A stretch of 41,593 nt of DNA from Oscillochloris sp. ZM17-4. GTDB lineage: Bacteria; Chloroflexota; Chloroflexia; Chloroflexales; Chloroflexaceae. The notes under the pieces are model-generated. The model saw only the letters and a list, made by a program, of their open reading frames with translations. It did not search any database and was not told the DNA's origin. The stretch's first letter is position 1, and every line of letters begins with the position of its first letter. Position numbers and translations under genes: made by a program. The DNA is taken from the NCBI RefSeq assembly GCF_019599295.1, contig NZ_JAIEWN010000010.1, positions 111,163 through 152,755 on the forward strand, read 5' to 3'. Of this stretch, positions 518 to 13,356 are shown in pieces.

Positions 518-780
518 AGATAGTCCTCCTCAGCGGCTCAGTGGCTCCGCGCTCTATTGTACGCGCTCTTGAGGGGGCAAAAATCGGGCAACACACCATA
601 AAGCAACAGTGTGTTATCATGATTTCACCTCTTGGTACTATCATATATGCCGTTCAGATATACAATACGTATACGTCGCCACTTCCCACTTCTCCACTAC
701 CTTCGGCGCTCTTGTGTAGCCCTGTGGCTGTCGGCAGCGGAGGGCGTTTTTTCTGCCCCTTGAGCTATCCTGTGAGCAGC
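518..780. promoter_or_regulatory. divergent intergenic region xpt / CBS-receiver gene
   Basis: This AT-richer gap separates two divergent genes. It holds an inverted repeat AACACAC / GTGTGTT (590-596 and 609-615, 12-base spacer) and a perfect 10-base palindrome ACGTATACGT (667-676). TACAAT-like -10 hexamers occur on both strands (661-666 plus; 556-561 minus) but have poor -35 partners. The inverted repeats could be operators. This is inference from symmetry only. Confidence 0.35.
719..752 (+). terminator. leader hairpin with T-run upstream of the CBS-receiver gene
   Basis: A GCCCT / AGGGC stem (719-723 and 741-745) encloses an inner CTG-TCGG-CAG hairpin and is followed directly by GTTTTTT (746-752). 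The structure lies only 28 bases before the start codon, so if transcribed with the gene it would act as an attenuator. A similar arrangement precedes the next gene, kimA. Confidence 0.45.
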
Positions 781-2364
781 ATGAACTCAACGAACCCAAA
801 TCTCTTCCTCCCAAGCCTCGACGATGTCACCAACACCGACCTACAGATCATTGATCTCGGCACTCCCGTGCGCGCCATTATAGAGCAGCTCAACCAGCAG
901 GGAGCCACCTTCACGCTCATCCGAGCGGCGGGCCAGATCACGGGCACGCTCACGATCCACGACGTGGTGCAGATGATCGCGGACGGCCCTGCGCCCGACA
1001 GCCTGACCCTCGACGCCGCGGCGGGCCGCCCGCTGATCAGCATCGCCCGCGACGCGCCCGATGGCGTCCTGGACGCGCTACGGCTGCTCGCGCAGCACCA
1101 GACGGGCCAGCTGATCGTCCGCAACGCCGACGGCTCGATCGCCGGGATGATCTCACAGGAGAGCATCTGCGCTGCGATGACCCCGGCGATGCTCATCCAC
1201 ATGCGCACGGTGGCCGAGGCGATGCGCACAGAGGTCATCAGCGTCGGGGCCGAGGAGTCGCTGCTCAGCATCGCCCGGCGCATGGGCGAGGGCAAGGTTA
1301 GCAGCGTGGTGGTCGTGGCCGTCGAGGAGGGCGGGGCGCGGCCGCTCGGCATGATCACCGATCGCGACATCACCCGCGCCCACGCGGCCCAGATCGACCT
1401 GGCCGCGACCCCGGCCCGCGCGCAGATCACCCCCCAGCTGATCACGATCACGCCCGACGCCAGCCTCTGGGATGCGCACCAGGCCCTCGACCGCGCCCAC
1501 GTCCGGCGGCTCATCGTGGTCGACTCCGCCGGCTACCTTGTTGGCCTGCTCACCCACAGCAACCTACTCAACGCCACCGCCCCGCAGGATCTTCAGCGCA
1601 CCTTCGACCTGCTCCAGCGCAGCGTGAGCATGCGTACGGCCGGGGCGCTCACCCCGCGCCCCGCAGCCGGCGGCGACGCTCAGCCCCGCAGCGGCATCCG
1701 CCTGCTGCTCGTCGACGACAACGGGCTCTTCCTCCAGGTGATCCACCGGCTGCTGGTGAGCCGTGGATTCACTGTCGCCGGCGTGGCGGGCAGCGGACAG
1801 GAGGCGATCCGGCAGTCCCGCGCGCTCCAGCCCGACATTATCTTGATGGATGTCGAGATGCCCGAGATGAGCGGCCTCGAGGCGACACGCGCGATCATGG
1901 ACGAGCGACCCGACGCGCGCATCGTCATGCTCACCGTCGCCGAGGACGACGACACGCTCTTCGAGGCAGTGCGGCACGGCGCGGCCGGCTACCTGCTCAA
2001 AGACGTCGACATCGACCAGCTCAGCCAGTACATCCTCGGCCTGATGCGCGGCGAGGCGGCCCTCTCGCCGGTGCTGGCCCAGCGGGTGCTCAGCGCCCTG
2101 GCCAGCCAGATGCGCCAGGACAGCGCCCTCCAGCCCGACCCATCCAGCATCCTCACCCACCACCAGATCCGCATCCTCACCCTGCTGGCCCAGGGCAACA
2201 CCTACAAAGAGATCGGCCGCATCCTCGGCTACAGCGAGCGGGCGATCAAGTACCACACCGGCGAGTCTATCCGCCAGCTCAAGCTCAAGGACCGCGCCGA
2301 GGCCATCGCCTACGCCCGCGCCCACATGCAGCGCGCCACCTGGCCGAACGTCGGCGATCCTTGA
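781..2364 (+). CDS. four-CBS / receiver / LuxR-type DNA-binding response regulator
   Basis: This is a 527-residue cytoplasmic regulator. Residues about 22-135 and 142-265 form two tandem CBS pairs (Bateman modules), which in general bind adenine nucleotides. A receiver domain follows (about 305-420), with the acidic pair D312/D313 and phospho-acceptor D357 in a LMDVEMPEMSG context. A LuxR/NarL-type helix-turn-helix (about 457-520) has the LAQGNTYKEIGRILGYSERAIKYH pattern. The reading frame extends upstream to 541, but ATG 781 was chosen because the longer version would run through the leader hairpin and low-complexity sequence. The architecture suggests a transcription factor that integrates nucleotide binding with phosphorylation. 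No partner kinase is adjacent. The next plus-strand gene is a potassium importer, and a link through cyclic di-AMP is possible but unproven. Confidence 0.85.
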   Translation: MNSTNPNLFLPSLDDVTNTDLQIIDLGTPVRAIIEQLNQQGATFTLIRAAGQITGTLTIHDVVQMIADGPAPDSLTLDAAAGRPLISIARDAPDGVLDALRLLAQHQTGQLIVRNADGSIAGMISQESICAAMTPAMLIHMRTVAEAMRTEVISVGAEESLLSIARRMGEGKVSSVVVVAVEEGGARPLGMITDRDITRAHAAQIDLAATPARAQITPQLITITPDASLWDAHQALDRAHVRRLIVVDSAGYLVGLLTHSNLLNATAPQDLQRTFDLLQRSVSMRTAGALTPRPAAGGDAQPRSGIRLLLVDDNGLFLQVIHRLLVSRGFTVAGVAGSGQEAIRQSRALQPDIILMDVEMPEMSGLEATRAIMDERPDARIVMLTVAEDDDTLFEAVRHGAAGYLLKDVDIDQLSQYILGLMRGEAALSPVLAQRVLSALASQMRQDSALQPDPSSILTHHQIRILTLLAQGNTYKEIGRILGYSERAIKYHTGESIRQLKLKDRAEAIAYARAHMQRATWPNVGDP

Positions 2365-4720: not shown

Positions 4721-5263
4721 TCAGACGTGCTCCTCCTGGTGCTGCGCCGCGATATGCTTGAGCAGCGAGAGCAGGACAATCTTGACGCTCGAACGCTCGT
4801 TGGCGATACAGGGCAGCACCGGGACATCCATCGACACGCCCAGACGCCGCCGCACATAGCTCACTGGCAGGGCTGCGGGGTCATCCTGCTTATTAGCGGC
4901 CACCACAAAGGGCGCGTCGGTAATATCGGCGAAGCGGGCCATGAGCCGCTGAGTCTCGGCGAAGTGCCCGGGGCGACAGCTGTCAACCATCACCACATAG
5001 CCCAGGCAGCCGATACTCAGGTGCTCCCACATAAAGTCGAAGCGCTCCTGGCCAGGTGTTCCGAAGAGGTAGAGGTTCAGCTTCTCGTTGATCGCGATCG
5101 TGCCAAAATCGAGGGCGACCGTCGTCTCACGCTTGAGCTCGCGCTCCTCATCGAGGGTCACCGCATAATCGGTAGAGACCGTCTCAATATCGCTAATTGT
5201 CCGGATGAACTGGGTTTTTCCAGCCGAGTAACTGCCGGTGATGACGATTTTCAGCGGCTGCAT
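4721..5263 (-). CDS. small Ras-like GTPase (CvnD / MglA-like)
   Basis: This is a 180-residue cytoplasmic GTPase. The P-loop is GSYSAGKT (10-17), the G3 region reads GTPGQERF (68-75) and G4 is NKQD (124-127). The G3 Asp of most Ras proteins is replaced by Gly, as I recall from CvnD GTPases of Streptomyces conservons; the following FDFMWEHLSIGCLGYVVMVDS stretch also fits that group. It is the last gene of a three-gene operon after the roadblock and PATAN proteins, starting 19 bases after the PATAN stop. Roadblock proteins commonly act as partners or activators of such GTPases, so a signalling switch is likely. An MglA-like role in polarity is an alternative. Confidence 0.88.
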   Translation of the reverse strand: MQPLKIVITGSYSAGKTQFIRTISDIETVSTDYAVTLDEERELKRETTVALDFGTIAINEKLNLYLFGTPGQERFDFMWEHLSIGCLGYVVMVDSCRPGHFAETQRLMARFADITDAPFVVAANKQDDPAALPVSYVRRRLGVSMDVPVLPCIANERSSVKIVLLSLLKHIAAQHQEEHV

Positions 5264-5282
5264 GGTCAGGTTGTCCTTTCAC

Positions 5283-6017
5283 CTACAGCCCACGGACGCG
5301 CCGCATAATCGCGTCGAGCAGACCTCGGCCAACCATTGGCGGACCCTCTTCTCCAGAGCGCGCGCCAGCCAACACCGGTTCCATCATCGAACCCTGCGGT
5401 GATGTCATCAGATCGAGTCGCGGGCGTGGCTTGGACTTCGGCACCGCCGGCGGGACAATCTCAACCAGGCCGATGGACATGAGCTCGGCCACCGTGCGGA
5501 TCGCCTGGTCTACGCTGATCCCGGTGGCATCACAGATAGCGCGCAGGCTCGGGGCGATGGAGACCTGGCTAAGAATGCGCCACTGGTTCACATCGAGGCT
5601 CACCCCGCTCTCCGCGCTGCTGGGCAGCGGCGAAAGCTGGAGCTGTGTGTCGAGGGTGATCGTGTGGTAGGGCATCGCGAGGGCCGGGTTATCGCGCCGC
5701 CGCATCCCCTCAAGCACAAGCCACTCGCTGTCATGCGCAATATGCACTGGTCGCTCTAGGACAGCAGGCGAGTGGCGGAAGGTGAAATCTGCATCATCCC
5801 ACAGCAGCATACGAATCACGCCCTCATCATGGGACGCGAGAACCGTGCGCTCAGGGCCGCTCACTACCGCTGCGTCGATCAGTCGCCCCGCAGCCACATA
5901 GATAATCCCGCGCTCGGCGCCGCTCGTAAGGAGCAGCACCCCAGTCTTTGGCCCCATACGAAAGACCTGAAACAGGTCGCTCAGGGACATATCTTGCAGT
6001 GTGCCTTCGAGTGCCAT
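5283..6017 (-). CDS. PATAN (DUF4388) domain protein with C-terminal winged helix
   Basis: The 244-residue product starts with MALEGTLQDMSLSDLFQVF and continues with GVLLL...GIIYVAAGRLIDA, the hallmark of DUF4388/PATAN domains (about 1-100). A predicted winged-helix segment (about 140-190) reads RAICDATGISVDQAIRTVAELMSIGLVEIV. The tail is proline- and charge-rich. It sits between the roadblock and GTPase genes, the place taken by the DUF742 protein (CvnC) in actinobacterial conservons, whose C-terminal half also looks like a winged helix. I infer it is the adaptor of the module. ATG 6017 was chosen over upstream codons because it begins at the conserved domain edge and has GGAGG six bases before it. 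Confidence 0.85.
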   Translation of the reverse strand: MALEGTLQDMSLSDLFQVFRMGPKTGVLLLTSGAERGIIYVAAGRLIDAAVVSGPERTVLASHDEGVIRMLLWDDADFTFRHSPAVLERPVHIAHDSEWLVLEGMRRRDNPALAMPYHTITLDTQLQLSPLPSSAESGVSLDVNQWRILSQVSIAPSLRAICDATGISVDQAIRTVAELMSIGLVEIVPPAVPKSKPRPRLDLMTSPQGSMMEPVLAGARSGEEGPPMVGRGLLDAIMRRVRGL

Positions 6018-6215
6018 GGAGGCCCTCCGTACACATGTGGGGAAGGGCTGGCCCCCCCTCCCCACACACTCCCCCATCTGCCACTTAGATGCCGGCCAGC
6101 TGACGCCGGGCCATCCGCTCACCGCCCCCCAGCTCAGCAAGGTGCGTGAGCTGATTATCATCGTACGACTGCTTGAAGATCGCCACGTCGAGGGACAGCA
6201 GCCCACGTGGTATTT

Positions 6216-6587
6216 CTATAGGATCTGGGCAATCGCCTTTGCGGCGTCGCGGGCCTCAATCCGCACCAGGCCGAGGTTGGCGCCCTGGCGCAGGTTCACC
6301 GCCAGCAGGCTCTGGTCGCCCGCCGGGAGCACCATGAACAGGCCGTTATCGGCCTTGATGATCGTCTCCTCAGTCATACCGATCTTCAGCTCGCCCGACA
6401 CCCGCCGCGTCACGCCCATCATCGTGGCGGCCACGGCGCCGACGCGGTCGGCGTTCACATCGGCCGACATCTTCGAGACGAGGACGATCCCATCCATGCT
6501 CACCGCAGCGACACCAGAGACATCGGTGCCAGCATTGGAGGACAAGTGATCAAGCACCGTCGTAATCTGCTCCTGTCGTGAGGCCAT
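6216..6587 (-). CDS. roadblock/LC7 domain protein
   Basis: This 123-residue protein is a single roadblock/LC7 domain. It has the typical pattern of an N-terminal helix (QITTVLDHLSSNAGTDVSGVAAVSMDGIVLVSK) and a late strand (LFMVLPAGDQSLLAVNL). Such dimeric proteins (MglB, CvnB) bind small GTPases and act as regulators or GAPs. It is the first gene of the operon and has a good AAAGGA ribosome-binding site. The 198 bases before the next gene contain only short imperfect hairpins and no gene I can support. The operon is divergent from a histidine kinase. Confidence 0.9.
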   Translation of the reverse strand: MASRQEQITTVLDHLSSNAGTDVSGVAAVSMDGIVLVSKMSADVNADRVGAVAATMMGVTRRVSGELKIGMTEETIIKADNGLFMVLPAGDQSLLAVNLRQGANLGLVRIEARDAAKAIAQIL

Positions 6588-6710
6588 GGTATATTTCCTT
6601 TCACCTATTGAATAGTACCGCCCTGGGCCAGCGCCCGTAGCGCTCGTCGGGCATCTCCACAGCACCAGTATAGAGGGGCGCGGGCCATCCGTGTACAACA
6701 GAACCACAAC

Positions 6711-6722
6711 GATCACGTGATC
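6711..6722. promoter_or_regulatory. 12-base perfect palindrome, possible operator
   Basis: GATCACGTGATC is fully self-complementary. It lies in the gap between the roadblock operon and the kinase gene, immediately upstream of the kinase -35 box, a position suited to control of both directions. No protein is assigned to it. Confidence 0.45.
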
Positions 6723-6728
6723 ATTCCA

Positions 6729-6757
6729 TTGCCCCGATAACCTAACAGCACTATACT
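6729..6757 (+). promoter_or_regulatory. putative promoter of the histidine kinase gene
   Basis: TTGCCC (6729-6734) and TATACT (6752-6757) are 17 bases apart, about 28 bases before the first start codon. The -35 matches only its TTG half. An alternative start at 6822 would give a longer leader. Confidence 0.5.
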
Positions 6758-6791
6758 ATCCTGATGCTCACCACATCACAGGGGCCGCGCG

Positions 6792-8825
6792 ATGGCCCCG
6801 TACTACACCAGGGCTGTACCTATGTCACGCCATCTGCAGCTGACGCTTGGCTATAGCGTCGCTATTCTGCTCGTCGTAATCACCACACAAGGCCCGGCGA
6901 CACTCTTCGGCATCGCCGCGATCCTCGCCGTCTGTGCGGTGGTCGCGGCAATACGTTACACGCAGAGCAGCGCCCTCGTCACGCCCCTGCAGCAGGTCGG
7001 CGCGGCCTTGGATGCGGTTGCCCAAGGCGATCTGGAGTATGCCCTACCCCGCCAAATGCCCGCCGAGTTTGCCACCATCGCTCACAGCTACCACACGATG
7101 CGCGATATCCTGCGTGATCGACAGCGCGACCTCGAGATCCAGCTGCGCCGCACCTCGCTGCTCACCCAGATCTCCATTGAGCTGTGCGAGAGCCTCGACA
7201 CAACGATGATCGCCGAGCGTGTGCTGCGGGTGCTTGGCAGCAGCCTGAACATCGATAGCGCCACGATCATCCTCTCGCCCCCTGAAAGCCCAACCCGACT
7301 CGGGATGCGCTGGGAGAATCGGCACCTCCAGCAGCTTGATCCGCCACGGATCGCCCAGATGCTCGACTACGGCATGGAGGGATGGGTGCAGCAAACCACG
7401 AGCAGTGCCGTGCTCGCCGATGTGAGCACCTCCGAGCGCTGGCAGGCCGGCGGCGGCAGCCAGACGGGAAGTGCGATCGTGCTCACGCTGCGCCAGGATA
7501 CGGACGCACTGGGGAGCCTGACCGTCTACGCCCAGCACACAAACGCCTTCACCAACCACGATCTGCTCCTGATGGAGGGCATCGTCGCCCAGACGAGCGT
7601 GGCCATCAGCCTGAGCCTTCGCTTTCAGGCCGAGCGGCAGCACACCGAGCAGCTCGGCGCGCTGGTGGGCCGCCGCACCGATGAGCTCCAGCGGTCGCGC
7701 GATCTGCTGCGGCTTGTCTTCGACCACCTGCCCGAGGGCCTGCTGCTGCTCGACGCAGATGGCGAGATCCTGGCGGCCAACAGCACATTTTGCCGCAGCA
7801 TCGTCGGGCGCATGCCGCGCGAGACCGTTGGGAGCCGCTACCATCAGCTCTGGCGCGATCTGATGCAGCAGTCTGAGCTCAGCCTGACCCCGCAGGGGCC
7901 ATCGGAGAGCGGTGTCCCGCTCGCGCTCGCCGAGGGGGAGGCATTCACCAGCATCGCGGCGAGCTGGCGCGTGCTCAGCAGCGATATGATGGGACAGCAG
8001 CGCTGGTACGCCGTTGAGCGAACCCCCATCGCAGGCCCCCAAGGCACCGCAGAGCAGTGCCTTGAGCGCTGGCGCGACATCACCCAGCAGGAGGAGCTCC
8101 AGCGACGGCTGCTCGTACACGAGCAGCTCACCAGCCTGGGGCGCCTGGCGGCGAGCGTCGCCCACGAGGTGGGGAACCCGCTCCAGAGCGCGCTCGGCTG
8201 CCTGGAGCTCTGCCGCGAGGATCAAGGCCTGAGCCCGCTGAGCCATGAGTACCTCGATCTCGCGCTGGGTGAGCTTGATCGCATGGCGCGGACGATGGCG
8301 AGCCTGCGCAATCTCTACCGGCCGCCGCAGATTGTCTGGGAGCCGGTCGATCTCAACCAGATCATCCGTCAGGTGGGGCAGTTTACCCAGCACCAGCTTG
8401 ATCGCACAAGAGTGCGCCTGCACCTCCACCTCGATGGTGAGCTGCCGCCGATCACCGGCCAGCCCGACGCGCTGCGCCAGGTCTTCTTAAACCTTGTGCT
8501 CAACGCGCACGAGGCGATGGAGCAGGGCGGGGAGATCCATGTCAGCACGGTGCACAAGCCCACCGACCGAATCTGCCAGGTGATCATACGCGACACGGGC
8601 GTTGGCATGAGCGCCGATCAGCTCGCCCATATCTTTGAGCCATTCCGCTCGATGAAGGCTCAGGGCGTGGGACTGGGACTCTACCTGAGCCGCCAGATCA
8701 TCACACAGCACACGGGCCACATCGAGATCTCCAGCCAGCTCGGCCAGGGCACCACGATCATCATGCAGTTCCCGTGGAATGACGCAGGGCCGTGGCGGCC
8801 ACATCGTGCGCAGAGGAGTGCGTGA
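6792..8825 (+). CDS. membrane histidine kinase: 2 TM, HAMP, GAF, PAS, HisKA, HATPase
   Basis: The 677-residue protein has a hydrophobic hairpin at about 17-57 with no sizeable external domain, so it probably senses membrane or cytoplasmic signals. It continues with a HAMP-like region (60-110), a GAF domain (about 115-280), a PAS domain (about 305-430), and a HisKA domain with phospho-acceptor H458 in ASVAHEVGNPLQ. The ATPase domain (about 545-665) has FLNLVLNAHEA, DTGVGMS, FEPFRSMK and GVGLGLYLS boxes. All catalytic boxes look intact. The response regulator gene begins about 50 bases later and is the obvious partner. Divergence from a roadblock/PATAN/GTPase operon recalls conservons, whose first gene is a sensor kinase. 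ATG 6822 (residue 11) is an alternative start. Confidence 0.9.
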   Translation: MAPYYTRAVPMSRHLQLTLGYSVAILLVVITTQGPATLFGIAAILAVCAVVAAIRYTQSSALVTPLQQVGAALDAVAQGDLEYALPRQMPAEFATIAHSYHTMRDILRDRQRDLEIQLRRTSLLTQISIELCESLDTTMIAERVLRVLGSSLNIDSATIILSPPESPTRLGMRWENRHLQQLDPPRIAQMLDYGMEGWVQQTTSSAVLADVSTSERWQAGGGSQTGSAIVLTLRQDTDALGSLTVYAQHTNAFTNHDLLLMEGIVAQTSVAISLSLRFQAERQHTEQLGALVGRRTDELQRSRDLLRLVFDHLPEGLLLLDADGEILAANSTFCRSIVGRMPRETVGSRYHQLWRDLMQQSELSLTPQGPSESGVPLALAEGEAFTSIAASWRVLSSDMMGQQRWYAVERTPIAGPQGTAEQCLERWRDITQQEELQRRLLVHEQLTSLGRLAASVAHEVGNPLQSALGCLELCREDQGLSPLSHEYLDLALGELDRMARTMASLRNLYRPPQIVWEPVDLNQIIRQVGQFTQHQLDRTRVRLHLHLDGELPPITGQPDALRQVFLNLVLNAHEAMEQGGEIHVSTVHKPTDRICQVIIRDTGVGMSADQLAHIFEPFRSMKAQGVGLGLYLSRQIITQHTGHIEISSQLGQGTTIIMQFPWNDAGPWRPHRAQRSA

Positions 8826-8872
8826 TCCTACGTGTGCGGCGGCGCGCCTATCGTGTGAGGCTCGGCGCACAT

Positions 8873-9706
8873 ATGAGCAGAGAGAGAGAGATGGAATCAT
8901 CCCGGGTGTTAGTGGTTGATGATGAGACCCTGGTGCGGAGAGTCCTCGGGGACGCACTACGCCAGGCCGGGTACCGCGTGTATCGTGCGGCGAGCCGCGC
9001 CGAGGCGCTCACCATCCTTGAGGAGACCGGCGCCGATCTGATGCTGCTAGATCTCCAGCTCGGGGATGATGACGGGGTCGAGGTCATGCGCACCGCCCGC
9101 AGCAGGTGGCCCAACCTCCCCATCATCATTCTGACAGCGCACGGGTCGATGTCCAGCGCGATTGAGGCGGTGCGCAACGATGCCGCCGACTACCTGCTCA
9201 AGCCGATCAGGATGGACGTCCTGAAGGCACGTGTGGCGGACATTCTTGATCAGCACCGCGTCAGCCAGCAGCGGACCGAGCGCATTCGCACGATGTACGA
9301 GCAGCTCCAGGCGCTTGTCGAGGATGAGGGTCTCGACACCGCGCGGGGGGCAGCGCCGCAGCCGACGCCCAGCGCAAGCCTGCGCGCCGGCCCCCTGATG
9401 ATCGATGTGCAGCAGCATGTGGCGCGTATGGACGGGCAGCCCGTCGATCTCACCCCCACCGAGTTTGCGATCCTGTACGCCATGGTGCGCCAGCCGGGGG
9501 TGGTGATCTCCTGCAACCAGCTGATCCAGTCGTTCCAGAGCAGCCAGATGGATGAGGATGAGGCGCGCACGGTCATGCGCCCGCATATCGTGCGCCTCCG
9601 CCGAAAGCTTGAGCCGGACCCCCACCGGCCACAGTATATCCAGTCGGTGCGCGGGATCGGCTACCGCTGGAGCGACACCGACGACCAGGGCGGCGATGAG
9701 CGGTGA
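8873..9706 (+). CDS. OmpR-family response regulator
   Basis: This is a 277-residue DNA-binding response regulator. The receiver domain has the DDE acidic cluster near residue 13 and phospho-acceptor D60 in LMLLDLQLGDDDG. The conserved T (ILTAHG) and K (LLKPI) are present. A linker of about 60 residues leads to an OmpR-type winged helix (about 175-265) with the PTEFAIL...PHIVRLRRKLEPDP...VRGIGYRW signature. ATG 8873 was chosen; ATG 8891 is possible, and an upstream in-frame extension to 8792 overlaps the kinase. It is co-transcribed with the kinase and presumably phosphorylated by it. The GAGAGAGAGAG run just before ATG 8891 is unusual and could serve as ribosome-binding sequence. Confidence 0.9.
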   Translation: MSREREMESSRVLVVDDETLVRRVLGDALRQAGYRVYRAASRAEALTILEETGADLMLLDLQLGDDDGVEVMRTARSRWPNLPIIILTAHGSMSSAIEAVRNDAADYLLKPIRMDVLKARVADILDQHRVSQQRTERIRTMYEQLQALVEDEGLDTARGAAPQPTPSASLRAGPLMIDVQQHVARMDGQPVDLTPTEFAILYAMVRQPGVVISCNQLIQSFQSSQMDEDEARTVMRPHIVRLRRKLEPDPHRPQYIQSVRGIGYRWSDTDDQGGDER

Positions 9707-9800: not shown

Positions 9801-10148
9801 ATGGCGCGAGACCTGAACAAGGTTCAGCTCACGGGGCGCCTCGGCGCCGACCCGACACTCCGCCGCACGGCCCACGGCAGCGTCATCTCGACATTCCGCG
9901 TTGCCACAAATCGATCCTGGCGATCGTCCACCGGGATCTCCCACCAAGAGACCGAGTGGTTCTATGTCGTCGCCTGGGATCAGCTCGCCGATCTCTGCCA
10001 GCGCTCGCTGGTGAAGGGCGCCCACATCTATATCGAGGGCCGGCTCAAGACGCGCCTGTGGGCCGAGGGTGATGGGCGACAGCGCTCGACCACCGAGATC
10101 ATCGCCAGTGAGATTATTCTGTTCGCTGACCAGGAACGCGCCATCTGA
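9801..10148 (+). CDS. ssb: single-stranded DNA-binding protein, short form without acidic tail
   Basis: The 115-residue protein is an OB-fold SSB. It begins MARDLNKVQLTGRLGADPTLR and has a STFRVATNRSW strand, an ETEWFYVVAWDQLAD segment and a KGAHIYIEGRLKTRLW strand. It binds single-stranded DNA during replication and repair. It ends at FADQERAI, right after the OB fold, and lacks the glycine/glutamine linker and acidic DDDIPF-type tip that recruits partner proteins in most bacterial SSBs. A second full-length SSB elsewhere in the genome would explain this. It has its own promoter and faces the PfkB-type kinase gene. Confidence 0.92.
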   Translation: MARDLNKVQLTGRLGADPTLRRTAHGSVISTFRVATNRSWRSSTGISHQETEWFYVVAWDQLADLCQRSLVKGAHIYIEGRLKTRLWAEGDGRQRSTTEIIASEIILFADQERAI

Positions 10149-10169: not shown

Positions 10170-11027
10170 CTACAAGCCTGGCGTGTCGTGCCGCGCATGG
10201 GCGGTGAGCCGCGCCATCGCCTCTGCGCGGGTGGGCACCGTCGTAGCGCCCCGCCCCTCCACCGCGCAGGCGGCCACGGCGCAGGCGAAGGCGGCTGCGG
10301 CGAGCGGGTCGCCCGTCTCGCGCAGCCTCAGCAGTAGCGACGCGGCAAACACATCGCCGGCGCCCGTCGGGTCGCGCTCATCCGCCGGGAAGGCGGCTAT
10401 CTCGTGCGGCGCGCCGCCGATGTAGAGGGTTGCGCCGCGCGCCCCACGAGTCACCGCCACGAGGCGACAGTCACGCGCGTAGCTCGCCGCCAGCGCCTCA
10501 TCCCCACCCACATCCTCGATGCTGAGCACCAGCGCATCGACGCGGCGCAGCTGGGCCGGGTCGGGCCGCCACACCACGCGCCGGATGGGCGCGGGCAGGG
10601 GCAGATCCCACGCGCGCATCCACCCCTGGGGCGTGACGCCGATGAGCGCGTCGGGGAAGGCGTCGGCGAGCTCCAGCCCAAACTCGCCCGTCAGCGGGCC
10701 GAGGTGTACGAGCGCAGCGGAGCGCCACGCCGGCGGCACATCGGCGGCGCGCAGCCGGGCGCCGAGCGCGTGCAGGAGCTGCACGCGGCCGTGCTGCGTG
10801 TAGTGGTTCTCGAACGTCGATAGCGCATCCGAGGGCACAAGCGCGACCTGCACGCCCGCAGGCAGGCCGGGGATGAACCCAGGGCTTCCAGCCGCCAGAA
10901 CCGCCGCACGGACACCAAGACGGCTGGCCGTGATCGCCGCGTAGCGCGCCGTCCCGCCGAGGGCGCTACCGCCATCGGGCAGCAGATCGCGGGTCAGGTC
11001 ACCGATGACCAGGTACTCTGGGGGCAT
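10170..11027 (-). CDS. PfkB-family (ribokinase-like) carbohydrate kinase
   Basis: This 285-residue cytoplasmic kinase has the PfkB-family glycine pair near the N-terminus (GGSALGGTARYAAITASRLG) and the C-terminal signature DPTGAGDVFAASLLL, in which the Asp of GAGD is the catalytic base. VTRGARGATLY precedes it. The family phosphorylates sugars or nucleosides. The substrate cannot be read from the sequence. It is the last gene of the minus-strand rpmH cluster, 68 bases after jag, and converges on ssb with a 21-base gap. The ribosome-binding site is weak. Confidence 0.88.
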   Translation of the reverse strand: MPPEYLVIGDLTRDLLPDGGSALGGTARYAAITASRLGVRAAVLAAGSPGFIPGLPAGVQVALVPSDALSTFENHYTQHGRVQLLHALGARLRAADVPPAWRSAALVHLGPLTGEFGLELADAFPDALIGVTPQGWMRAWDLPLPAPIRRVVWRPDPAQLRRVDALVLSIEDVGGDEALAASYARDCRLVAVTRGARGATLYIGGAPHEIAAFPADERDPTGAGDVFAASLLLRLRETGDPLAAAAFACAVAACAVEGRGATTVPTRAEAMARLTAHARHDTPGL

Positions 11028-11095
11028 ACGCTGCTCGTCGAATCAAGAGGAGGCCGGGTATGCCCCAGCCTCCTGCCCGCGTAGATCAGCCCGCG

Positions 11096-11800
11096 CTACT
11101 TTGCGGGGTAGATCACGATCTTACGGTTCTCACCCTCGCCAGAGCTCTCGGTATAGATGCTCTTGTCCTCACGAAGCGCCAGGTGTACGATGCGGCGCTC
11201 GTAGGCGGCCATAGGCTCAAGCATCAGCGGGCGCCCCGTCTGGCGCACCCGCTCAGCCATACGCCGGGCCAGGCCCTCAAGCGACTCCTGGCGGCGCTGG
11301 CGATAGTTGCCGACATCCACGACAACCTGCGGCCACTTCTGCACCCGACGGCTCACCAGGAGGTTCAGGAGGAACTGCAGCGATCGCAGCGTCTCGCCGC
11401 GCCGGCCGATCATCAGCCCCATCGCCTCCTCATCCGCGCCTTCGACGTGGAGCGTCACGGTCTCCTCAATGTCACCTTTCTGACCAGGCACACGGGAGAG
11501 CACGGCCGTCACATAGGCGTGAATATCCATGCGCTCAAGAAGATCCTCAAGGATCTTGCGAGCGACAGTGCCAAGCTCGTCCCCAACCGGGGCGCTATCA
11601 GCCTGCGGCGGCGTTGACTCTTCAGGCTCAGCATCATCGGCATCATCGTCCACGACCGTTACACGAACCAGTGCCTCATCGCCCGACTCGCCGGACTCCA
11701 GCACTTCGATAGCAACTTCGTCGCGATCCTTACCGAGCTGCGCGAGTGCGAGCTCAACGGCCTCTGCGACCGTTCGCGCGCTGATCTCGATGCTCTTCAT
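11096..11800 (-). CDS. jag: Jag / KhpB RNA-binding protein
   Basis: The 234-residue protein has the Jag architecture. The Jag_N domain (1-50) starts MKSIEISARTVAEAVELALAQLG, an acidic low-complexity linker follows, then a KH domain with MGLMIGRRGETLRSLQFLLN, and an R3H domain with the RRIVH core near residue 203. Jag/KhpB (EloR) binds RNA and, in Gram-positives, affects cell elongation and division. It follows yidC, the usual neighbour. The start has GAGGAG seven bases upstream. Confidence 0.93.
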   Translation of the reverse strand: MKSIEISARTVAEAVELALAQLGKDRDEVAIEVLESGESGDEALVRVTVVDDDADDAEPEESTPPQADSAPVGDELGTVARKILEDLLERMDIHAYVTAVLSRVPGQKGDIEETVTLHVEGADEEAMGLMIGRRGETLRSLQFLLNLLVSRRVQKWPQVVVDVGNYRQRRQESLEGLARRMAERVRQTGRPLMLEPMAAYERRIVHLALREDKSIYTESSGEGENRKIVIYPAK

Positions 11801-11823
11801 ATCGCTCCTCGCTTCTCAGACAC

Positions 11824-11908
11824 GCTCTCCATGAACATTTCGGAGAGCAGATCAGCGATGATCATAACGCTGCAACTAGGAAAGATGGGGAGAGCTGATG
11901 CGCTCTCC
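11824..11908. repeat. two hairpins sharing the same arms between yidC and jag
   Basis: GCTCTCC / GGAGAGC arms occur twice in the 135-base yidC-jag gap, at 11824-11848 (11-base loop) and 11889-11908 (6-base loop), in opposite order. The arms could also pair across the two hairpins. No T-run follows, so processing or attenuation is more likely than termination. Confidence 0.5.
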
Positions 11909-11935
11909 ACCACAACTGCCGCGATCGTCACAGGT

Positions 11936-12940
11936 CTAGCGCCGTCGCCGTGGCCGGCGCGGGTTCTCTGGCGCACGACCCTGGAGTCGCGCATCATCAA
12001 TTGCCTCTTCTGTCGCATCAGCCTCAGGCTGCGTCTCCGTCTCGGTCAGCGGGCGCATGACCGACCAGAAGTCCGCACGCTGTGCGGCAACGCTCAGCGT
12101 GGATCCGGGCTCACCGCTTCCAGAAGAGACGACCACCGCCGGAGTAAGCGGTGAGGGCGCGGCGGGGCCGCTATCAGGCGGAAGAAACTTCAGGTAGTTC
12201 GCCAGCGAGCCCCAGCCCGACGTGAAGTACTGCTGCACCACACCGACGAGGCTGCTCACCACCCAGTAGAGCACCGCCCCGGTGGGAAACGTGAAGGCGA
12301 TATAGCCGAAGACGAGCGGCATAAACATCATCGCCTGGGTCATCGCCTTCTGCTGCGGGTCCTGGGTGCGCGGGGTCGCCATCGTCGTCTGCATCAGCTG
12401 GAGCAGGATGGACAGCACCGGCAGCACCAGGTAGATCGGGGCGGCGAAGCCAAGCCCGCCCGGCCCAAAGGCCGTCTTGCCAAGGTCGAACAGGCCGAGG
12501 AAAAGATGGTTGCTGTCGAACAGCGCGGCGACACTCGGATTTTCAAGGGCGGCCTTCGCGCCCGCGCTGAGGTTCACCCGCTGCGCCTCGACCATCAGGT
12601 GGTAGACGGCCTGGTACACGCCGAAGAAGATCGGCAGCTGGAGCAGCACCGGGAGGCAGCCGCCGACCGGGTTGATCTTATACTCGCGGTAGAGCTTGAG
12701 CGTCTCTTCCTGGAGCTTCTGCTGATCCTTGCCGTGCTTACGCTGCAGCTCCTTGATCAGGGGCTGGATCTGCTGCATCTTCCGGCTCGAGCGCAGCGAG
12801 GTGAGCGTCAGCGGAAGGATGATCAGCCGGGCACAGATCGTGAAGATGATGATGCCAAAGCCAACGCTCCCGGTCGTGGTGCTGAACCAGAGCAAGGTCT
12901 GCTCAAGCAGGCCAACAAATGCGGACCAGATTCCACCCAT
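11936..12940 (-). CDS. yidC: YidC/Oxa1-family membrane protein insertase
   Basis: The 334-residue insertase lacks the large periplasmic domain of proteobacterial YidC. The conserved core starts at the first membrane helices (GSVGFGIIIFTICARLIILPLTLTS), including the helix Arg that forms the hydrophilic groove. It continues through a cytoplasmic coiled hairpin (QQIQPLIKELQRKHGKDQQKL) and KINPVGGCLPVLLQLPIFFGVYQA, and ends in an arginine-rich tail (RAPENPRRPRRRR) suited to ribosome contact. It inserts membrane proteins with or without SecYEG. It begins 11 bases after rnpA. No yidD lies between them. Confidence 0.94.
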   Translation of the reverse strand: MGGIWSAFVGLLEQTLLWFSTTTGSVGFGIIIFTICARLIILPLTLTSLRSSRKMQQIQPLIKELQRKHGKDQQKLQEETLKLYREYKINPVGGCLPVLLQLPIFFGVYQAVYHLMVEAQRVNLSAGAKAALENPSVAALFDSNHLFLGLFDLGKTAFGPGGLGFAAPIYLVLPVLSILLQLMQTTMATPRTQDPQQKAMTQAMMFMPLVFGYIAFTFPTGAVLYWVVSSLVGVVQQYFTSGWGSLANYLKFLPPDSGPAAPSPLTPAVVVSSGSGEPGSTLSVAAQRADFWSVMRPLTETETQPEADATEEAIDDARLQGRAPENPRRPRRRR

Positions 12941-12951
12941 AGTACAAGCCT

Positions 12952-13356
12952 CTAGTGCCCAGTATGGGGATGAGTCGAATCCCCAGAAGATGGTGTCGCC
13001 ACATCTAGCGATGGGGAAGGCCGCCAGACCTGAGCCCGGCGCAATAGCTCTTCCACAGCACGCTGGAGCATGATAAATGGAGTGTCGATGATAGCTGCGC
13101 TACGTATCACAAATACGAGATCGTAGCCAGGGGTGATGTGAGGGAGGGCAATCCGCACCGATTCACGGAGGCGCCGCTTCGCAAGATTACGTCGCACCGC
13201 GATGCCGATCTGCTTCCCGACAACAAACCCGCACCGTATACGTCTGCGGCGACCGGAAACAACATTGAGCAGGAGAAGCGGGGAAGAAAACGTCCGGCCT
13301 TCGCGCCGTGCGCGCCGAAATTGGTCAGGCCGGCGCAGACGATAGGCGCGCTTCAT
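12952..13356 (-). CDS. rnpA: ribonuclease P protein component
   Basis: The 134-residue basic protein assists RNase P RNA in tRNA 5' processing. It has the N-terminal RLRRPDQFRRARREGR segment, the FVVGKQIGIAVRRNLAKRRLRE block containing the conserved RNR motif, and a YDLVFVIRSAA strand. A tail of about 20 residues after the fold (PSPSLDVATPSSGDSTHPHTGH) is longer than usual and low in complexity. The position right after rpmH is the classical one. Confidence 0.94.
   Translation of the reverse strand: MKRAYRLRRPDQFRRARREGRTFSSPLLLLNVVSGRRRRIRCGFVVGKQIGIAVRRNLAKRRLRESVRIALPHITPGYDLVFVIRSAAIIDTPFIMLQRAVEELLRRAQVWRPSPSLDVATPSSGDSTHPHTGH

Follow-up and report, generated by a model that had tools for sequence, protein, structure and literature searches.

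A Roadblock/GTPase operon of Oscillochloris sp. ZM17-4 as a probable globin-less derivative of a haem-globin-gated switch

The minus-strand operon of Oscillochloris sp. ZM17-4 described here probably derives from a haem-globin-gated Roadblock/GTPase switch and is present as a globin-less form of it. This reading is based on gene linkage, co-occurrence, a conserved column of the putative haem-ligand histidine, and the deletion and decay of the globin gene, all as read from sequence. The operon lies at 6587-4721(-) of the window, i.e., the whole analyzed stretch of 41,593 nucleotides, and consists of a Roadblock protein, a PATAN plus winged-helix protein and a GTPase with a GTPGQ motif (hereafter, the trio). 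A membrane kinase and its regulator are encoded divergently. The first-pass annotation had proposed this arrangement, and all five genes were found where it placed them (Table 1). The divergent gap was 204 to 225 bases, depending on the choice of the kinase ATG and with the Roadblock start at ATG 6587. Several gene boundaries were corrected. The Roadblock ORF, called as 6216-6716(-), and the PATAN ORF, called as 5283-6206(-), were shortened to ATG 6587 and ATG 6017, respectively, by alignment with relatives. The stretch 6206-6018, which the mechanical ORF had fused to PATAN, contains the remnant of the lost globin gene. The 63 residues upstream of MALEGTL were ruled out as a part of the PATAN protein, being unlike the relatives and in another frame overlapping the remnant. 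As the regulator likely starts at ATG 8873, its overlap with the kinase was considered an artefact of a GTG-extended ORF. No Rfam match was obtained within the window.

Table 1. Features of the Roadblock/GTPase locus and the divergent kinase genes (window positions).
Feature	Position	Strand	Basis
Small Ras-like GTPase, 180 aa, G3 FGTPGQ	4721..5263	-	Pfam and motifs
PATAN (DUF4388) + winged-helix protein, 244 aa	5283..6017	-	Pfam DUF4388, 1.1e-16; start from homologues
Winged-helix domain, about residues 118-190	5448..5666	-	Structure model compared with the PDB
PATAN domain, about residues 4-110	5688..6008	-	Pfam match, renumbered from ATG 6017
Protoglobin gene remnant (codons 143-181; full gene about 182)	6091..6207	-	tblastn and L073 alignment
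Roadblock/LC7 protein, 123 aa (MASRQEQ...), first operon gene	6216..6587	-	Robl_LC7, 6.9e-12; start from homologues
Divergent intergenic region, Roadblock/kinase	6588..6791		Sequence read
Membrane sensor histidine kinase, HAMP-GAF-PAS-HisKA-HATPase_c	6792..8825	+	Pfam
OmpR-type response regulator	8792..9706	+	Pfam; likely start ATG 8873

The Roadblock/LC7 protein is presumed to be a GTPase regulator. The GTPase matched ATP_bind_1 (1.5e-13), Ras (2.2e-8) and Arf (3.9e-8) in Pfam and carries the motifs GSYSAGKT (G1), FGTPGQER (G3) and NKQD (G4). In the case of the PATAN protein, the winged helix matched MarR_2 below the Pfam cut-off (0.0032), the C-terminal helix LLDAIMRRVRGL is conserved, and the model had a mean pLDDT of 81 and a pTM of 0.51. 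Compared with the locus L073, Roadblock showed 90% identity and a pN/pS of 0.12, and the GTPase 93% identity and a pN/pS of 0.09. All three proteins of the window are evidently kept under purifying selection after the globin deletion. A check of relatives for the co-occurrence of the trio covered 25 long loci retrieved around GTPases with at least 56% identity. All three genes were present in 24; the exception was L064, where Roadblock was not detected. The grouping goes beyond chance, as the trio is conserved in numerous genera and in varying gene order.

In the relatives, the operon holds a fourth gene, encoding a single-domain sensor globin (Pfam Protoglobin, 1.1e-28). The first-pass annotation overlooked it because it is deleted in the window genome. 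The GTPase (at least 60% identity) and the full-length globin were each present in 28 of 61 genomes and were concordant in 59, with 27 holding both and 32 neither; as these genomes are mutually related, the Fisher value for the co-occurrence overstates independence. Counted by genus, 15 held both, one held the globin only and 13 held neither. In the mixed genera (g1, g11 and g23), the two genes were gained or lost jointly, with the exception of the window genome. Moreover, the globin lay within the same cluster in 23 of the 27 genomes holding both, and elsewhere in G014, G018, G019 and G029. One genome, G007, held the globin and Roadblock but no GTPase reaching 60% identity. In G044 (GTPase 56% identical), a trio operon was present and the globin was not found, and two Deinococcus plasmid operons with PATAN, GTPase and Roadblock showed no globin by annotation or HMM.

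Scanning for the globin by itself returned 46 loci. In 38 of these, a Roadblock, GTPase or PATAN gene was encoded on the globin strand no more than 1 kb away, and in 33 the distance to Roadblock was at most 500 bases. The loci linked to trio genes span at least five phyla, and 12 of 12 globins in loci labelled non-Chloroflexota or Anaerolineae were so linked (L103, labelled Gracilibacteria, was kept out of this count). At the remaining eight loci (L106, L109, L111, L122, L129, L130, L131 and L134), no trio gene was in reach, the sequence of L109 stopping 154 bases past the globin; thus, the globin may also act alone. The globin-bearing operons come in several gene orders, and the globin adjoins partner genes in Herpetosiphon aurantiacus, Thermus oshimai and Pseudomonas citronellolis. 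In the existing annotation of T. oshimai, DUF4388, GTPase, roadblock, protoglobin and EAL genes are consecutive, the globin being a more divergent protoglobin (HMM 4e-8). When plasmids were searched with the globin by tblastn, only 11 records came up, each with low identity, and the T. oshimai protein was not among them. For a match on an Acinetobacter plasmid, obtained separately, no gene was listed beneath the matched stretch. The globin lies beside MglA-type GTPases in L135, L136, L137 and L143. In L114, L125, L126, L138 and L141, it accompanies Roadblock, and no GTPase lies closer than 3 kb. Accordingly, Roadblock appears to be the constant partner of the globin. No fusion of the two was found; in the loci read, they are separate ORFs. 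Other putative input genes were seen in or beside the operon, namely, V4R, a phosphonate-binding-like protein and two-component systems, which suggests a module with swappable inputs.

For haem binding, the protein contacts, the ligand, the direction of the signal and the output, we infer the following scheme. In the ancestral form, the single-domain sensor globin, Roadblock, the PATAN/winged-helix protein and the Ras-like GTPase would act jointly. Binding of O2, NO or CO at the globin haem would change the shape of the globin, and this change would be passed to Roadblock, which, like MglB or MfpD, would determine whether the GTPase is in its GTP or GDP state. As an exchange factor or an effector, the PATAN/winged-helix protein might transmit this state to an output that could be motility or transcription. 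The first-pass annotation named polarity or gliding as one option. In the literature, roadblock proteins are described as GAPs and the CvnC homologue MfpC as a likely GEF (PMC13343842). In the window, the globin is deleted, and the divergent kinase and regulator may now supply the input or take the output.

The kinase had been described as a full HAMP-GAF-PAS kinase with a DNA-binding regulator, which agreed with the Pfam matches (HAMP, GAF, PAS_4, HisKA and HATPase_c; Response_reg and Trans_reg_C). Its hydrophobic stretches were near the N-terminus only, which we read as a two-helix hairpin in the membrane without a periplasmic domain. Since the kinase is retained in the window where the globin is lost, the locus could be a conservon analogue in which the divergent kinase is the true sensor, the trio is the signal path and the globin of the relatives is incidental. 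Consistent with this, kinase homologues (E<=1e-70, 19 candidates per genome scored) occurred in 10 of the 28 operon-bearing genomes vs 0 of the 33 others and were adjacent in 8 of the 10, and more distant kinase matches held the same divergent position in L088, L089 and L112. However, close homologues were lacking in 18 of the 28 operon-bearing genomes with the same number of candidates scored, while the globin followed the GTPase in 27 of 28, and the kinase lies outside the operon, has its own regulator and lacks LPxR. No close-by kinase homologue was found at the Roseiflexus or Herpetosiphon loci. Thus, the kinase as the true sensor is considered unlikely. Its proposed tie to the trio stands in several relatives but not as a core part, which was rejected on the distribution above; the pair is a lineage-restricted addition that may now provide the input or receive the output.

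The likeness of the locus to actinobacterial conservons (CvnA-D), as proposed in the first-pass annotation, was only partly borne out. Roadblock is present together with a GTPGQ GTPase, to which CvnD is 35-43% identical; in a tblastn search of plasmids, the best matches (40-43%) were CvnD-like proteins of Streptomyces. In a 60-row tree, however, 10 CvnD rows, all plasmid-borne, formed their own branch (100/100), and the window GTPase was within a 27-row Chloroflexota branch (100/97). Five MglA-like rows, one of which matched Thermus MglA at 5.6e-65, formed a far branch (100/100). Therefore, the GTPase is nearer in sequence to the CvnD type than to MglA proper but is outside the CvnD clade. LPxR was found in 4 of 4 CvnA proteins examined and is absent from the window kinase. 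Moreover, CvnA is encoded within its operon without a response regulator, whereas the kinase here is divergent and accompanied by one, and the relatives of the window operon have a globin partner. Conservons have a stand-alone DUF742 protein (CvnC) in the place of the PATAN protein, and no DUF742 match was obtained among the window proteins at E<=0.1 in Pfam. The idea that PATAN replaces CvnC may nevertheless be the wrong picture. The winged-helix half aligned with DUF742/CvnC at an hhalign probability of 93% (C-terminal half alone, 70-77%), compared with 14% for distant PATAN-winged-helix proteins, 21% for paralogues and 0-0.7% for unrelated controls, although generic HTH chains also weakly match DUF742. 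Thus, PATAN may be an added domain, or the similarity may be that of generic HTH proteins.

In the globin, the proximal-histidine column was invariant in 30 of 30 sequences and corresponded in the alignment to the histidine of GsGCS, a globin-coupled sensor from Geobacter. The proximal histidine is the haem ligand in the GsGCS family. The globin model (pLDDT 89) reached a TM-score of up to 0.84, on the target, against globin sensor domains. The present globin therefore resembles protoglobins and the globin-coupled sensors HemAT, AfGcHK and GsGCS in fold and histidine column; whereas the output domain is fused in those sensors, here the globin is unfused, with Roadblock and GTPase as its gene partners. 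As unlinked and tandem copies exist (L111 and L122), the globin might instead be an enzyme of detoxification or oxygen handling that only shares its expression with an oxygen-responsive GTPase module and does not gate it. This is quite unlikely, as globin and Roadblock are tightly paired in different phyla and alongside either of two GTPase types, the closest solved folds of the model are sensor domains, and an independent globin-Roadblock fusion, HGbRL of Methylacidiphilum infernorum, is known (PMC4476040). In that paper, HGbRL is a haem globin fused to Roadblock, is proposed to relay a ligand signal to Roadblock and is called unique to Methylacidiphilum. As described there, HGbRL is one protein with a flavohaemoglobin-like globin, whereas the present system consists of separate genes with a protoglobin-type globin, includes a GTPase and PATAN, and occurs in several phyla.

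The globin gene of Oscillochloris sp. ZM17-4 appears to be deleted to a decaying stump. The remnant comprises 39 codons without a start codon, the first approximately 142 codons being gone, and was matched at 74% identity (tblastn, 4.8e-11), compared with 92-95% for more distant intact globin pairs. Its pN/pS was 0.36 vs 0.04-0.08 in four intact pairs, which indicates relaxed constraint, and its pS (0.385) was similar to that of the GTPase (0.397). Compared with L073, the amino acid was changed at 10 of 39 codons, including three columns invariant in 30 of 30 sequences (K144, N154 and E158) and three conserved at 90% or more. Among the globin-less operons examined, a remnant was seen only in the window: none was above chance in L082, L084, L088, L089, L080 and L061, and short, weak matches in L076 and L077 (E 0.009 and 0.038) were not counted, as they fell where one query ORF had been extended too far at its start, into an overlap with the query's own Roadblock gene. 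As the genome is in 182 contigs, assembly errors could occur, but an intact globin hidden by such an error is highly improbable and was dropped as the sole explanation, since the leftover codons themselves decay at a pS matching that of the GTPase, and no PF11563 match, and hence no second protoglobin, was found anywhere in the genome.

Neighborhoods related to the trio have been described. Wuichet and Sogaard-Andersen (2014, PMC4316618) have reported MglA/MglB genes with PATAN neighbours, in Groups 1 and 5, as well as a REC-like plus winged-helix protein adjoining the GTPase in Group 3. These share with the present operon a small GTPase, Roadblock and an adjacent PATAN or winged-helix protein; the word "globin" does not occur in the main text of that paper. 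The gamma/beta-proteobacterial loci L132, L139, L140 and L142 have a Group 3-like layout plus the globin and, judging by this layout, may belong to Group 3. For the winged-helix part of the PATAN protein, 8 of the 10 top structural matches were chains of the GATOR1/SEA complex (Z 8.1-9.2, 69-73 residues). These chains are presumably NPRL2/NPRL3, regulators of Rag GTPases. However, the Z-scores barely exceeded the tool's stated background of 7-8, generic winged-helix matches were nearly equal, the Foldseek E was 0.014 with no match reaching 0.001, and the sequence profile against NPRL2 was at chance level (E about 1). Therefore, the GATOR1-like fold was not upheld as a claim and is kept as a lead. 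For the PATAN half, a very limited comparison gave no clear PDB match, to which no weight is attached.

More broadly, and tentatively, the loci could represent a widespread unrecognised class of globin-gated GTPase switches in five phyla (Chloroflexota, Deinococcota, Pseudomonadota, Verrucomicrobiota and Chlorobiota), with the globin as the sensing partner of Roadblock and the trio as a minimal bacterial analogue of Rag-Ragulator-GATOR1, the nutrient switch of eukaryotes, with swappable sensors; we hold this at somewhat below even. If true, many orphan sensor globins would gain a function, and haem gas sensing would be an input of GTPase switches. Our literature search, with most subscription papers outside its scope, gave HGbRL as the only globin tied to Roadblock/GTPase. 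According to a published abstract, the role of the Methanosarcina protoglobin is still unknown, and the signal path of bacterial Roadblock/GTPase switches is called poorly understood in PMC13343842. The window offers a natural knock-out, in which the globin decays and the GTPase, Roadblock and the PATAN/winged-helix protein stay conserved. If right, the proposed gating would be directly testable in isolates with adjacent genes, such as the Herpetosiphon, Thermus and Pseudomonas species named above, and would join the function of stand-alone sensor globins and protoglobins with the signal for bacterial Roadblock/GTPase switches.

The gene content that the first-pass annotation gave for the window locus was right, and gene starts alone were corrected. 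When relatives were searched for the trio of Roadblock, PATAN/winged-helix (PATAN-wH; PATAN is Pfam DUF4388) and small GTPase, its predicted co-occurrence was borne out. Among 61 genomes of the order, 28 had the GTPase at ≥60% identity, and genome G044 had a copy at 56%. Around GTPases of ≥56% identity, 24 of the 25 long loci fetched (L-numbers) contained all three genes, the sole exception being L064, where Roadblock was not detected. Most genomes of the order also carried a second GTPase, approximately 54% identical and located 3' of a different PATAN gene, with no Roadblock hit nearby at the thresholds applied. In the window genome, this paralogous operon showed neither a Roadblock nor a globin hit nearby and adjoins a gene that we take to be DUF1385. 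PATAN genes as neighbours of GTPases are already in print (PMC4316618).

Features of the window and of related loci
Feature	Locus	Coordinates	Strand	Remark
Roadblock gene	window	6587-6216	-	start revised from earlier ORF
PATAN + winged helix gene	window	6017-5283	-	start revised
Small GTPase, FGTPGQ	window	5263-4721	-
HAMP-GAF-PAS histidine kinase	window	6792-8825	+
OmpR-type regulator	window	end 9706	+
Three CBS stretches + receiver domain + LuxR-type HTH	window	541-2364	+	one unusual protein (Pfam)
SSB	window	9801-10148	+	Pfam-confirmed
ORFs, presumably PfkB-type sugar kinase, Jag, YidC, RnpA	window	10170-13356	-
Paralogous PATAN-GTPase operon	L016 (C161 of window genome)	7270-8676		in most genomes of order
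PATAN-GTPase pair duplicated in tandem	L076	4895-10086		globin between copies; second globin after second pair
PATAN-GTPase pair duplicated in tandem	L077	2308-6543		globin between copies
Phosphonate-binding-like protein (PF12974)	L080	2863-3594		directly upstream of Roadblock
Phosphonate-binding-like protein (PF12974)	L084	4466-5197		directly upstream of Roadblock
Thermus oshimai pTHEOS01	L144	4908-7125		EAL-domain gene starts 4 bases after protoglobin

The PfkB-type kinase/Jag/YidC/RnpA arrangement is frequent near the replication origin.

In relatives, a gene of approximately 182 codons lay between Roadblock and PATAN and matched Pfam Protoglobin (1.1e-28); its predicted structure (pLDDT 89) matched sensor domains of globin-coupled sensors. 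Other relatives had the orders PATAN-GTPase-Roadblock-globin or globin-Roadblock-PATAN-GTPase. The full-length globin was found in 28 of the 61 genomes. Both genes were present in 27 genomes and neither in 32, while the window genome had the GTPase only and G007 the globin only; counting G044 as GTPase-positive gave 27 both, 2 GTPase only, 1 globin only and 31 neither. By genus, the counts were 15 both, 0 GTPase only, 1 globin only and 13 neither. Fisher p values were 5e-15 (genomes) and 2e-7 (genera), both too small owing to the kinship of the genomes. Within genera g1, g11 and g23, globin and GTPase were present or absent in step, the window genome excepted. The globin lay outside the cluster in 4 of the 27 genomes (G014, G018, G019, G029), adjoining a second Roadblock in G014 (L114). 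In G019 and G029, the operon itself was without globin, and two different sensor globins stood in tandem away from any GTPase operon (L111, L122).

No PF11563 match at E≤0.001 was found in the window genome. The best globin match of the window was 39 codons immediately after the Roadblock stop codon, 74% identical to the globin C-terminus. Against the closest relative, this remnant had a pN/pS of 0.36. Four intact pairs, although more distant, gave 0.04-0.08 over the corresponding segment; its shortness makes these ratios rough. Moreover, 3 of its 10 replacements fell on columns invariant across 30 intact globins. The other window genes gave 0.09 (GTPase), 0.12 (Roadblock) and 0.25 (PATAN-wH). 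Judged from these sequence ratios, constraint on the remnant appears relaxed, while the other three genes look maintained.

One scan of a contig collection with the globin alignment as the only query yielded 46 loci. Profile searches placed a co-oriented trio gene no more than 1 kb away in 38 of them, the others being L106, L109, L111, L122, L129, L130, L131 and L134; Roadblock lay within 500 bases of the globin in 33. The profiles were built mostly from Chloroflexales sequences, plus a few from the scanned loci themselves (L128, L137, L142). All 12 loci labelled non-Chloroflexota or Anaerolineae were linked to a trio gene: a Deinococcales MAG, three Pseudoxanthomonas, Pseudomonas citronellolis, a Rhodocyclaceae MAG, a Verrucomicrobia MAG, Cerasicoccus maritimus, a Chloroherpetonaceae MAG, two Anaerolineae MAGs and a Halothece-labelled MAG, which may be mis-binned. 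The loci L103 (labelled Gracilibacteria) and L127 (labelled Halothece) were Chloroflexota-like; the former label looks wrong and the latter is uncertain. On Thermus oshimai pTHEOS01, others' annotation lists DUF4388, GTPase, roadblock, protoglobin and EAL consecutively; this globin was more divergent, and the EAL gene hints at a c-di-GMP output there. Two Deinococcus plasmid operons had the trio, with no globin detected.

The GTPase neighbour of the globin was of MglA type at L135, L136, L137 and L143, and at L114, L125, L126, L138 and L141 Roadblock adjoined the globin with no GTPase detected within 3 kb. Thus, Roadblock is the constant partner of the globin. V4R proteins (in the operon at L080, L109 and L110) and the phosphonate-binding-like proteins (two genomes of one genus) are possible other inputs. 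A receiver gene immediately followed the globin at L113, and a PAS-kinase-receiver gene followed it at L143.

The divergent kinase had been proposed as part of the system. With 19 candidates scored in most genomes, its homologues (E≤1e-70) turned up in 10 of the 28 genomes that carry the operon and in 0 of the 33 others, adjoining the operon in 8 of those 10. Therefore, the kinase accompanies the operon in some members of the family but is not a core part.

The suggested likeness to actinobacterial conservons held in part. In a 60-row GTPase tree, CvnD (10 plasmid sequences) formed its own branch (100/100), while the window GTPase sat in a 27-row Chloroflexota branch (100/97), with MglA-like GTPases far off. 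The LPxR motif, present in 4/4 CvnA examined, was absent from the window kinase. The C-terminal half of PATAN-wH aligned with DUF742 (CvnC) at 93% probability, and at 70-77% when taken alone, against 0-0.7% for unrelated controls; DUF742 scored 14% against a distant PATAN-wH set and 21% against paralogues, and its profile also weakly matched ordinary HTH proteins. From these alignments, homology of the winged-helix half to DUF742 is plausible. The PATAN-wH model (mean pLDDT 81, pTM 0.51) had no Foldseek match at E≤0.001. Of its top 10 chains, 8 were from GATOR1/SEA complexes (Z 8.1-9.2, winged helix only), presumably NPRL2/NPRL3. The sequence profile reached only E of about 1 against NPRL2, and the resemblance offers no more than a starting point for comparison with Rag-like systems.

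The trio and a globin-Roadblock fusion in one genus are already known, and the open-licence literature searched yielded no paper linking protoglobins to Roadblock/GTPase operons. Published work describes the Roadblock proteins MglB and MfpD as GAPs, with MfpC a likely GEF (PMC13343842), and a ligand-signal relay was proposed for the globin-Roadblock fusion (PMC4476040). Because of these precedents, we propose that gas bound at the globin would alter the globin-Roadblock contact, and that Roadblock would in turn set the GTPase state, with PATAN-wH as a putative exchange factor or effector. A Myxococcus list tied to MglA/SgmX pili regulators includes PATAN proteins, not studied there as far as the consulted part goes (PMC11580455). 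The obvious candidate outputs would be motility or transcription.
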